From: Salinicola corii
GTDB lineage: Bacteria > Pseudomonadota > Gammaproteobacteria > Pseudomonadales > Halomonadaceae
Assembly: GCF_008298015.1 (NCBI RefSeq)
Contig: NZ_VTPX01000001.1
Span: 620,001-684,000 of the forward strand
Direction: 5' to 3'
DNA: 64,000 nucleotides
Positions 35,841 to 45,176 of this stretch are shown piece by piece (position 1 is the first letter of the stretch; every line of letters starts with the position of its first letter). Both the position numbers and the translations under genes were made by a program. The notes under the pieces are model-generated. The model was given only the letters and a program-made list of their open reading frames with translations, had not been told where the DNA came from and did not search any database.

Positions 35841-37546
35841 TGGTCAAGATCACCCGGCAGGCGTACGCGGACATGTACGGCCCCACGGTCGGCGATCGTG
35901 TGCGCCTGGGCGATACCGAGCTGTGGATCGAGGTGGAGCGCGACGCGACGGTCTATGGCGACGAGGTCAAGTTCGGTGGCGGAAAGGTCATTCGTGACGG
36001 CATGGGCCAGAGTCAGCGTCACGATGGCTCGGTCATGGATACCGTCATCACCAACGCCCTGATTCTCGACTGGTGGGGTGTGGTCAAGGCGGATGTCGGC
36101 CTGCAGAAGGGCCGGATCGCGGCGATCGGCAAGGCCGGCAATCCCGACGTGCAACCGGGCGTCGATATTGTCATCGGGCCGGGCACGGAGATCATCGCGG
36201 GGGAGGGCAAGATCCTCACCGCTGGCGGCATCGACGCGCACATTCACTTCATCTGCCCGCAGCAGGTCGAGGAAGCGCTGATGAGCGGTGTCACAACGAT
36301 GCTGGGCGGCGGCACCGGTCCGGCGACAGGCACCAACGCCACGACCTGCACGCCGGGCGAGTGGCATCTGGGCAAGATGCTGCAGGCGATCGACACGCTG
36401 CCTATGAACATCGGCCTGCTCGGCAAGGGCAATGCCAGCCTGCCCGAGGCGCTGGAGGCGCAGATCGTGGCCGGGGCGATCGGGCTCAAGCTGCACGAGG
36501 ACTGGGGCACCACGCCGGCGTCGATCGACAATTGCCTGAGTGTGGCGGAGCGGTACGACATCCAGGTCGCGATCCATACCGATACGCTCAACGAGTCCGG
36601 TTTCGTCGAGGACACGATCGCCGCGTTCAAGGAGCGCGGCATCCATACCTATCACACCGAAGGCGCGGGCGGCGGCCACGCCCCGGACATCATCACTGCC
36701 TGCTCGAAGGATTACGTGTTGCCATCGTCGACCAACCCGACCCGGCCCTACACCGTCAACACCATCGATGAGCATCTCGACATGCTGATGGTGTGCCATC
36801 ACCTCGACCCAAACATTCCGGAAGACGTGGCCTTTGCCGATTCACGCATCCGCCGCGAGACCATCGCCGCGGAAGACATCCTGCATGATATGGGCGTAAT
36901 CTCGATGATCGCGTCGGACTCCCAGGCCATGGGGCGCGTCGGCGAGGTGGTCTGCCGCACCTGGCAGACCGCACACAAGATGAAGGTACAGCGCGGCCTG
37001 CTGCCGGAAGACGAAGCGCTGGGGGCGGACAATTTCCGCGCGCGTCGCTATATCGCCAAGTACACCATCAACCCGGCGCTGACTCACGGCATCGCTCACG
37101 AGGTCGGATCGGTGGAGGTTGGCAAGCTGGCCGATCTGGTACTGTGGAGTCCGGTATTCTTTGGGGTCAAGCCGGCATTGATCGTCAAGGGCGGCATGAT
37201 CGCGGCGGCGCCGATGGGCGACGCCAACGCCTCGATCCCGACGCCGCAGCCGGTCCACTACCGGCCGATGTTCGGGGCGTTCGGCAAGGCCGCCAGCGCG
37301 ACCCGCTTCAGTTTCGTCAGCCAGGCGGCACTGGATGTCGGTATCAAGGCGCGACTGGGACTGGAGAGCGAACTCTCGGCGGTCAGGCAGGTGCGTGGCG
37401 TTCGCAAGAAAGACATGAAGCTCAACGACGCCTGTCCGCAGCTGACCGTCGATCCGCAGACCTACGAAGTGCACGCCGATGGCGAACTGCTGAGCTGCGA
37501 GCCGGCGACCGAGCTGCCGCTGGCTCAGCGTTATCATCTATTTTGA
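35840..37546 (+). CDS. ureC: Urease alpha (catalytic) subunit
   Basis: 568 residues. The nickel site is intact: HIHFICPQQ supplies the first two His ligands, [13 protein letters not shown] holds the carbamylated Lys, and downstream His residues are in [13 protein letters not shown], the [11 protein letters not shown] block and MVCHHLD (flap). It hydrolyses urea to ammonia and carbamate in the cytosol. The length is normal and no key residue is missing. Confidence 0.98.
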
Positions 37547-43322: not shown

Positions 43323-44105
43323 TCAGGGCTGGGTAATGTCGGACCCGAACCACTTCTCCGAAATGTCGCTCAACTTGCCGTTGTCACGCAACTTGGCGAG
43401 CGCGTCGTCGATTCTGCTCTTCATCGCCTTGCCCGCCTCGTCGTCGCGGAACGGATAGGCATTCTCGATGCGGGAGAAGGGCTGCCCGGCCAGTTGCAGC
43501 GGCAACGGCTTGTCCTTGATCACCTGCGTGGCGCTCACACGGTCCATGACGAAGGCATCGGCGCGGCCCAGGGCGACGTCCTGCTCGATGTTGGAGTCAT
43601 ACGTCTTGATATCGATGTCATCGGCATACGGCAGCTCATTCAGCAACTGCTCGTAGTTGGAACCGAGGTTCACCGCGACCGTCTTGCCCTTGAGATCCTC
43701 GACCCCATGAATGGCGTCGTTGCCTTTGCGAACCACCACCTGGGCACCGTCATAGACATAGGGCTGGCTGAAAAGATACTTCTTCCGGCGCTCCGGCGTG
43801 ATGGTGATCTGATTGGCGATGGTATCGATTCGGTTGGAGTCCAGCATACCGGCCAGGCCGGAGAAGCTGGCGGTCACGAACTCGACGTCGTCGCCGGTGA
43901 TCTCACCGATCGCGTTCATGAGGTCGACCTCGAACCCCTTGAGTTCGTCGCGCTCGACGTAGGTGAAAGGGTAGTACCCTCCCGACATGCCCACTCTCAA
44001 GGTGTCGGCCTGTGCCAAGGTTGCACCCAGCGATGCGGTGAGCCCTAGCGCGAGAGCCAATGTGGCCTGTCGGAGAGACGCCATTGCAATCGATCGTGTT
44101 GTCAT
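43323..44105 (-). CDS. Amino-acid ABC transporter binding protein (cystine type)
   Basis: 260 residues with a signal peptide (LALALGLTASLGATLAQA). Type II periplasmic fold: LRVGMSGGYYPFTYVERDEL, GFEVDLMNAIGEITGDDVEF, ITITPERRKKYLFSQPYVYD and AVNLGSNYEQLL. The pattern resembles FliY/TcyJ-type cystine-binding proteins more than glutamine or arginine ones, but ligand assignment by eye is tentative. It is encoded first in its operon, as expected for higher expression. Confidence 0.85.
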   Translation of the reverse strand: MTTRSIAMASLRQATLALALGLTASLGATLAQADTLRVGMSGGYYPFTYVERDELKGFEVDLMNAIGEITGDDVEFVTASFSGLAGMLDSNRIDTIANQITITPERRKKYLFSQPYVYDGAQVVVRKGNDAIHGVEDLKGKTVAVNLGSNYEQLLNELPYADDIDIKTYDSNIEQDVALGRADAFVMDRVSATQVIKDKPLPLQLAGQPFSRIENAYPFRDDEAGKAMKSRIDDALAKLRDNGKLSDISEKWFGSDITQP

Positions 44106-44628
44106 GAGCGAAGAGATTCCTTGAGAAGGTTGTGGGAACGTCGCCTTTGGACGCGCTCAATCTGGAGATAGAATAGCGCAATTCTGAAATAGGTAATAAG
44201 AAAAATAATTTATATGCCCTTTTGTTTGGCGCTATCGTCGACATGCCGAAACCGTGGCGGTGGACGGTCGCATCGGGCCGCATTCCGTGTCAGTAACTGA
44301 AACCAATCTATACTTGGCTTTGCCGTTTGTAATGTATTGATCTAACATTTGCGCGATTCTTTCTGTGAAGGCTGCTGCAGGGACGTGACCAAGGGATGTA
44401 CGCTTCGCGTTGGTTAGTGGCATGGGCTAAGGAACGAGCCGACAGGCTCAAGAGCGCGGGAAGTATCGGCGCATGACCGTCAGCAGTGTTATGCGGCCTC
44501 TTTCGCCACCGGCATTGAGGTTCATGACGCGGGGGGTGGCAAGTGTCTCGGGAAAACCGGCGTCCTTCCGTCGGTTTTCTTCTTCAATCTCGATTGCCAA
44601 CCTTCGACAGCCCATTCTTTTGAAATGC
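44106..44628. other. Intergenic region upstream of the sRNA
   Basis: 523 nt without a supported gene. An AT-rich block (44160-44220) is the probable promoter area of the binding-protein operon. GAAAACCG (44552-44559) with CGGTTTTC (44572-44579) is a terminator-like hairpin on the plus strand. A transcript could end there, but I could not define its start or product. Confidence 0.4.
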
Positions 44629-44655
44629 TTGACCGATGGAAAACCCTTGTATAAT
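44629..44655 (+). promoter_or_regulatory. Promoter of the CsrB/RsmZ-like sRNA
   Basis: A consensus TATAAT (44650-44655) lies 15 nt after TTGACC (44629-44634); TGCTTG (44627-44632) gives an alternative 17-nt spacing. Start is expected near 44662. No GacA-type TGTAAG-N6-CTTACA element was found by eye in the 300 nt upstream. Confidence 0.6.
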
Positions 44656-44661
44656 TTTTAT

Positions 44662-44877
44662 TCGTTAGCTGACTCACTGCACCCGTGGATGGAGCCAAGG
44701 ATGCAAGAGCTGAGTCGGAGCCACAGTCAAGGAACACTGTCGGCCCGTTGGATTCAGGGAGATGAAAGCAGGGCTCAAGCGTTACCGTGAACTCGTTCCG
44801 TCAGGATGACGAAGATATAAGGCAGGACGCCCGGGTTCAGCGGTTGATGCAAGGGCGGGCCTAGAGGCCCGCCTTTC
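44662..44877 (+). ncRNA. CsrB/RsmZ-like CsrA-sequestering small RNA
   Basis: About 216 nt between a strong promoter and a terminator (GGCGGGCC 44854-44861 with GGCCCGCC 44866-44873, then T3). It is rich in GGA motifs, several displayed in hairpin loops: ACAGT-CAAGGAAC-ACTGT (44723-44740), TTCA-GGGAGA-TGAA (44753-44766), CGTCA-GGA-TGACG (44799-44811) and GGC-AGGAC-GCC (44821-44831). CAAGGATG (44696-44703) matches the CsrA consensus CANGGANG. This is the hallmark of RNAs that titrate CsrA/RsmA. No open reading frame fits; the frame 44473-44790 runs across the promoter. Confidence 0.72.
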
Positions 44878-45091
44878 GTGTTTCCGGGCCCCGAGGCAAG
44901 TTAGATACCGTCTGTGATACAAACTGGGTTATATCGCCGGCTATGGTTCTCGCTTACATTGGCGTTTCTGCGATCCCGGCAGGCAGTAGCACGCCCATCT
45001 GTCAACTCGACGGCTGAATCGTCCTTGGAAGTCCGGAGGGCTGCCGACCCGGCTTCGGGAACGATAGGTTATTAATACGGCAGGAATTCGA
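44878..45091. other. Spacer between sRNA and tRNA-Leu
   Basis: 214 nt with no supported gene. The 60-codon minus-strand frame whose product starts MWEFESPHPHH is a translation of the tRNA 3' half and its flank, a well-known artefact. No second tRNA or hairpin stands out. Confidence 0.5.
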
Positions 45092-45176
45092 TGGTGCGGA
45101 TGGGGAGACTCGAACTCCCACACCTTTCGGCACTAGAACCTAAATCTAGCGTGTCTACCAATTCCACCACATCCGC
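45092..45176 (-). tRNA. tRNA-Leu (anticodon UAG)
   Basis: 85 nt including encoded CCA (TGG on the plus strand at 45092-45094). The acceptor GCGGATG pairs with CATCCGC. The D-arm GGAATTGGTAGACACGC, the anticodon loop with TAG in TTTAGGT, a long class II variable arm and the T-loop GTTCGAGTC are all present. It decodes CUN leucine codons. Confidence 0.95.

Follow-up and report, generated by a model that had tools for sequence, protein, structure and literature searches.

Csr1, a predicted CsrA-sequestering small RNA conserved across Salinicola, and a second class of Csr-type RNAs in Halomonadaceae

In this study, we analyse a 64,000-nucleotide stretch of the Salinicola corii genome (hereafter the window) and describe Csr1, an unannotated element whose comparison with relatives supports its being a real, predicted RNA of the CsrB/RsmZ functional class that would sequester CsrA. 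We put at roughly 0.92 the probability that Csr1 is a noncoding RNA which lacks a GacA box and titrates CsrA through about five hairpins displaying GGA in the loop. Its promoter, RNA and terminator stem are common to all 18 Salinicola genomes examined, and this conservation lifts the predicted element well above chance. A second, shorter class of Csr-type RNAs, found through a weak match to the Csr1 model, occurs in many other Halomonadaceae genomes and is present in up to 15 full-length copies in one of them.

Genomic location, predicted promoter and terminator of Csr1

The locus lies between a tRNA-Leu gene and a divergent transporter gene, and its features in the window are as follows.

43323-44105, - strand: divergent amino-acid ABC transporter substrate-binding gene, on the other flank of Csr1
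44629..44634, + strand: -35 hexamer TTGACC, read from the sequence (CTTGAC-N16-TATA in 18/18 Salinicola genomes)
44650..44655, + strand: -10 hexamer TATAAT, perfect consensus, read from the sequence, 15 nt past the -35 hexamer
44662..44877, + strand: Csr1, predicted CsrA-sequestering small RNA of about 216 nt with 9 GGA, its start placed from the -10 hexamer
44851..44876, + strand: intrinsic-terminator-like stem of 11 pairs, followed by UUUCGUGUUU (helix 6 of the 18-sequence alignment)
45095..45176, - strand: tRNA-Leu (Rfam match), a syntenic marker downstream of Csr1

The tRNA-Leu falls inside the fetched flank at 8 of 10 Salinicola loci, and a ComF/GntX-like gene, with scores below the model cut-offs, lies beyond it. 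For the substrate-binding gene, the best NCBIfam model is of the cystine type, at 204 bits against a cut-off of 312.

The near-consensus TATAAT promoter noted in the sequence-only reading is borne out, the -10 hexamer being a perfect consensus preceded by TTGACC in the window copy and the pattern CTTGAC-N16-TATA recurring in every genome. In the Salinicola alignment, promoter positions have an information content of 1.2-1.9 bits each, compared with 0.14-0.39 upstream; conservation drops to background directly before the -35 hexamer, giving a sharp onset at the sigma-70-like promoter. The rho-independent terminator proposed in the same reading holds for its 11-pair stem, which is kept in 18/18 sequences, but the U-tract that follows (UUUCGUGUUU) is imperfect and broken. 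Both promoter and terminator are absent from the lists of a simple scanner, because the spacer is 15 nt, where the promoter scan requires 16-18, and because the U-tract is broken. Csr1 thus carries a putative promoter and terminator stem of its own in all 18 genomes, with no conserved reading frame: the check for a protein frame conserved across the region found none, all six frames holding stops in 17 of the 18 sequences.

GGA motifs, hairpins and covariation

CsrA targets have a known shape, an ARGGAU-type loop closed by a short stem, and five predicted hairpins with GGA motifs were recognized on the + strand.

44683..44692, + strand: GGA hairpin 1, with 2 pairs in the window copy and 4 in most relatives (helix 1, 93.1% of cells paired)
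44723..44740, + strand: GGA hairpin 2, ACAGUC-AAGGAA-CACUGU (helix 2, 98.1% of cells paired; changes on both sides in 5 of 6 pairs)
44753..44766, + strand: GGA hairpin 3, UUCA-GGGAGA-UGAA, in a register shifted from that of most relatives (helix 3, 66.7% of cells paired in a fixed register)
44799..44811, + strand: GGA hairpin 4, CGUC-AGGAU-GACG (helix 4; loop GGA in 18/18)
44821..44831, + strand: GGA hairpin 5, GGC-AGGAC-GCC, 3 pairs (helix 5; loop GGA in 18/18)

Without its relatives, the Csr1 sequence is suggestive, not conclusive. The interval 44662-44880 holds 9 GGA against a mean of 6.0 in dinucleotide shuffles, and 8% of 2000 shuffles reach 9; the excess is mild, although the densest GGA stretch on the + strand of the window is located here (10 per 219 nt, at 44625). 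The window copy forms 3 GGA-loop hairpins of at least 4 pairs (shuffle mean 1.16, p 0.07), and with one further hairpin of 3 pairs and one cut to 2, the earlier count of at least four was a fair one. The innermost C-C of hairpin 2 is mismatched in this copy, and the fold of the whole RNA has a z of -2.21, equal stability being reached in 7 of 200 shuffles.

The relatives provide the stronger evidence. BLASTN alone matched Csr1 in 10 of the 18 Salinicola genomes, one of them through a 34-nt terminator match only, and the locus in the remaining 8 was located by using an adjacent conserved element, R3 (see below), as an anchor. Across the 18 genomes, the RNA measures 218-283 nt and carries 8-14 GGA, and each sequence forms 3-6 GGA hairpins with 4 or more pairs, as against 0.9-1.7 in shuffles (p ≤0.02 in 16/18). 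When the five GGA hairpins and the terminator are laid over the 18-sequence alignment, in which one sequence (L043) is misaligned at hairpin 1, 90.5% of cells pair. Cells changed on both sides number 60, compared with 26.8 in shuffles (0/500 reach 60) and at most 21 in slid structures; pairs with changes on both sides number 14, compared with 10.9 and at most 10, respectively; and the covariation score is 0.300, with slid structures at 0.111 or below. Further pair types showed no gain over shuffles (31 versus 32.2). Hairpin 3 is the weakest, owing to its shifting register. The terminator stem pairs in 99.5% of cells across the 18 sequences and is too conserved to covary, none of its pairs being changed on both sides. 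GGA trinucleotides are kept more than others (mean 11.6 of 18 versus 6.5; p 0.002 by permutation). The GGAs at 44687, 44731, 44804 and 44825 are retained in 17, 18, 18 and 18 of the 18 sequences, and the five other GGAs of the window copy in just 3-9.

Identity of Csr1 and proposed mode of action

At gathering thresholds, Rfam gave zero matches across the Csr1 region. The top-ranked match was PrrB_RsmZ (RF00166), a member of the CsrB clan, at 21.7 bits (E 0.007, 44722-44880) against a gathering score of 44, which leaves Csr1 outside that family by the Rfam rule; because each clan is represented in the output by its top match alone, lower-scoring matches of Csr1 to CsrB or RsmY may exist. The Infernal search suggested at the outset thus ranked the expected clan highest, but with all matches below Rfam thresholds. 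A covariance model built on Csr1 (R1) found one full-length copy in the source genome, at 181.5 bits, the other matches listed being partial. The same genome has a single CsrA gene (CsrA equivalog model, 123.1 bits, cut-off 73) and a GacA-like response regulator scoring 243.5 bits, where the curated cut-off is 280 and the next best protein reaches 75. The assignment to the CsrB/RsmZ type is upheld by the covariation around GGA loops, the promoter, the terminator-like stem, the lack of a frame, the CsrA gene and the sub-threshold PrrB_RsmZ match, and it implies a function that we infer from these features.

Csr1 would be transcribed from its near-consensus sigma-70 promoter, and the transcript would end at the GC-rich stem. 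The RNA is predicted to display about five GGA-loop hairpins, a display backed by covariation. By analogy with CsrB/RsmZ, CsrA dimers would bind these loops, and mRNAs held by CsrA would be freed.

The upstream element R3

Directly upstream of Csr1 in 18/18 Salinicola genomes lies a separate conserved RNA element, which is not part of Csr1.

44335..44594, + strand: R3, with the box TATTGATCTAACAT, three GGA and a structured core extending to about 44460
44552-44579, + strand: terminator-like hairpin of R3 with a UCCUUCC loop, present in 16/18

The box TATTGATCTAACAT is near-invariant across Salinicola, and in those relatives, 8 in number, where both elements give long matches, identity is 78-94% for R3 versus 70-84% for Csr1. 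The R3 alignments comprise 17 of the 18 sequences (L036 was left out); the three GGA motifs are retained in 17/17, and 97.5% of cells pair, with 41 cells changed on both sides compared with 11.1 in shuffles. Taken by itself, R3 has a fold no more stable than that of its shuffles (z -0.30), and Rfam returned chance-level matches only at this element, none near threshold. With the corresponding model, each of the 18 Salinicola genomes yields a single copy. A further genus has lower-scoring copies, at 29-41 bits, in 10 genomes, and the 22 remaining genera of the sample gave no match at E ≤0.01. At 7 of the 10 other-genus R3 loci, a search with the Csr1 model found no Csr1. The three such loci that were read far enough carry a short GGA-bearing stretch and a terminator-like stem after R3, and in two a tRNA-Leu lies beyond that stretch.

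Control of Csr1 and alternative explanations

The GacA box has the consensus TGTAAG-N6-CTTACA. Within 450 nt upstream of Csr1, the best match to it shows 4-5 mismatches of 12 in all 18 genomes, which agrees with the sequence-only reading that the usual upstream element is missing; the same box is recovered at 26 of 40 copies of the second RNA class. A strict search of the window yielded 5 matches at ≤3 mismatches, where 5.6 are expected by chance, and the only one near Csr1 is at 44848, inside the RNA, none lying near it upstream of 44629. Since the search turned up no such box upstream, Csr1 is probably made constitutively or under a regulator different from GacA. The suggestion that control may differ from that in Pseudomonas accordingly gains support, as an inference from the negative box search and the lack of conservation before the -35 hexamer.

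In one alternative, Csr1 would be a typical Rsm RNA under GacA control, its box having diverged or standing at a greater distance upstream, for example at the conserved TGTAATGTATTGATCTAACA within R3. The genome does encode a GacA-like regulator, and this R3 box is near-invariant, stands about 330 nt before the Csr1 start, is upstream in 18/18 genomes and resembles TGTAAG-N6-CTTACA, but with 8 rather than 6 bases between the halves. This box could just as well serve R3 as its promoter, with a terminator-like hairpin coming after it, and the spacing between the box and the Csr1 -35 hexamer ranges over 291-419 nt; together with the 4-5 mismatches of the best strict match and the absence of conservation just upstream of the promoter, this makes GacA control of Csr1 unlikely in our view.

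Clearly less probable is that Csr1 acts by base pairing, as an Hfq-type sRNA, or forms the leader of an orphan mRNA, its GGAs being incidental purine-rich loops. Small RNAs commonly have GC-rich hairpins with a terminator-like stem at the end, and the GGA density of the single Csr1 sequence is just mildly raised, as such an origin would allow; however, in four hairpins the loop GGA is kept in 17-18 of 18 sequences while the stems change by compensation, the closest Rfam relative falls in the CsrB clan, and there is no conserved open frame. That Csr1 is conserved at the DNA level, as an untranscribed repeat or regulatory element, we regard as very improbable: conservation begins sharply at a sigma-70-like promoter, substitutions follow RNA pairing, and the source genome has one full-length copy only.

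Class-2 Csr-type RNAs of Halomonadaceae

A weak match to the Csr1 model (16.4 bits) in the source genome led to a second Csr-type RNA, whose class is represented by the model R2. Two source-genome loci are listed here.

G000:C22:46220-46359: class-2 Csr-type RNA (L134), seven GGA; R2, 156.6 bits
G000:C30:17078-17204: class-2 Csr-type RNA (L194); R2, 47.5 bits

BLASTN matched the first of these in 15 of 18 Salinicola genomes, and in an alignment of 18 class-2 sequences, 96.7% of cells are paired, with 31 changed on both sides versus 8.3 in shuffles. At E ≤0.01, R2 matches 84 of 151 Halomonadaceae genomes, comprising 18/18 Salinicola and 66/133 others. Copy number can be high: genome G126 has 17 matches at E ≤0.01 and 15 full-length copies at E ≤0.001, all 15 of which were read and carry 4-9 GGA each, and two further genomes (G127 and G136) have 10 each at the latter threshold. 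In G129, 14 matches less one antisense overlap and one partial give 12 copies. By comparison, csrA is present in one to three copies in each of 19 genomes searched. Rfam, run on 17 class-2 loci (9 of the 15 in G126 among them), never reached the threshold of a CsrB-clan family, RsmY at 30.1 of 57 bits being the best.

Unsupervised motif discovery in the sequence preceding 14 of the 15 G126 copies returned sites resembling TGTCAGCGATCTCTTACA, of which two match TGTAAG-N6-CTTACA exactly; the log-likelihood was 115.6 compared with 45.6-55.0 after shuffling. Counted at ≤3 mismatches, a GacA-type box precedes 26 of 40 class-2 copies, where 1.8 would be expected; the 40 are made up of 15 from G126, 12 from G129 and 13 of 14 best-hit non-Salinicola loci (L154 was left out), and the respective counts are 10/15, 8/12 and 8/13 (expected 0.68, 0.58 and 0.58). 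For G126 and G129 together, the box lies within 130 nt upstream in 18 of 27 copies, and in G129 a fixed pattern recovers 3/12 where counting at ≤3 mismatches recovers 8/12. Salinicola class-2 loci, of which the motif search took 16 of 19, instead show, in 14/16, a TACAT-like element at positions -76 to -78, with a motif score that partly reflects descent, these sequences being closely related.

Some class-2 RNAs stand divergent beside one or two csrA genes (G126:C12:20915-22014, G129:C23:225923-226987 and G120:C28:327578-328043), in three genomes of one genus, each with more than one csrA. In at least six Salinicola genomes (G015, G005, G017, G004, G007 and G002), a class-2 RNA follows Csr1 on its strand, about 0.7-0.9 kb further downstream; R3, Csr1 and class 2 therefore form a cluster there.

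Other candidates and side observations

Outside Salinicola, the matches listed for the Csr1 model are mostly terminator stems alone, and a few weak ones span the model. Two of them (L078 and L079) were read as coding or other sequence and set aside. A third (L080; G106:C1:83674-83878, - strand), from another genus, has the look of a true Csr RNA of a different sort, and its CsrB match, at 26 of 71 bits, is sub-threshold; the palindrome TGTACAAAGCTTGTACA stands before this Csr-like RNA. In the source genome, the candidate at C29:60154 (L056; G000:C29:60063-60333) proved to be a dispersed repeat and not a Csr1 copy, with matches in 16/18 Salinicola genomes, as many as 17 in a single genome; the repeat bears GGGCAGGATGCCC-type hairpins. 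Elsewhere in the window, positions 35989-36275 on the - strand match Rfam 5_ureB_sRNA at 125.8 bits. We take this family to be antisense to the urease coding sequence, and the match may reflect conservation of the urease gene rather than an RNA.

Implications for CsrA regulation in halophiles

For Halomonas anticariensis, Table 2 of one review gives GacS-GacA, and CsrA by genome inspection, with the sRNA as unknown (PMC7366521). CsrA targets have been modelled in species including Halomonas hydrothermalis, with sponge sRNAs named as future work (PMC12889724). Passages of a study predicting RsmA-binding sRNAs mention neither Halomonas nor Chromohalobacter (PMC5568370), and those of another show no Halomonas Csr RNA (PMC13414033). 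In Pseudoalteromonas fuliginea, Pf2 and Pf3 have been added to Pf1 (PMC11882849). Among the papers listed in a literature search, for the most part from journals other than subscription ones, none describes in its title or abstract opening a Csr or Rsm RNA for Halomonas, Halomonadaceae, Chromohalobacter or Salinicola. Csr1 and its relatives would supply candidate sRNAs for this halophile family, and would show that Rfam misses such RNAs.

Csr1 itself belongs to a known kind of RNA; the surprising part is the family-wide class-2 expansion, with 15 copies in one genome compared with the seven Rsm RNAs reported for P. syringae (PMC6715622). Such numbers raise the question of why so many sponges would serve one to three CsrA proteins, and it can be asked whether they divide into Gac-dependent and Gac-independent sets. 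In the source genome, class-2 RNAs elsewhere may provide the regulated part of CsrA titration. On a broader proposal we are evenly divided: Halomonadaceae may harbour an unrecognised, expanded set of CsrA sponges, consisting of a GacA-independent Csr1 with a strong promoter at tRNA-Leu (R3 upstream, and class 2 downstream in at least 6 of 18) and of GacA-box class-2 RNAs, about 15 in one genome and some divergent to csrA, in which Csr1 would titrate CsrA at a constant baseline, with regulation supplied by the class-2 array.

Comparison with known systems

In general design, many GGA loops sequestering CsrA, Csr1 resembles CsrB/RsmB (RF00018) and RsmY (RF00195), neither of which appears for Csr1 in an output that shows each clan by its top match. 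In other genera, some class-2 loci reach 23-30 bits with RsmY, below its cut-off. Class-2 RNAs share with Csr1 covarying GGA hairpins and a terminator, but they are shorter (R2 has 140 positions and scores Csr1 at just 14.7 bits), and many of their copies in other genera have a GacA-type box upstream, which Csr1 lacks. Among known families, the best match is PrrB/RsmZ of Pseudomonas (RF00166), whose model covers 133 positions compared with about 216 nt for Csr1, and from which Csr1 further differs in having no GacA box within 450 nt; the two have in common their GGA hairpins, a terminator and the presumed target.
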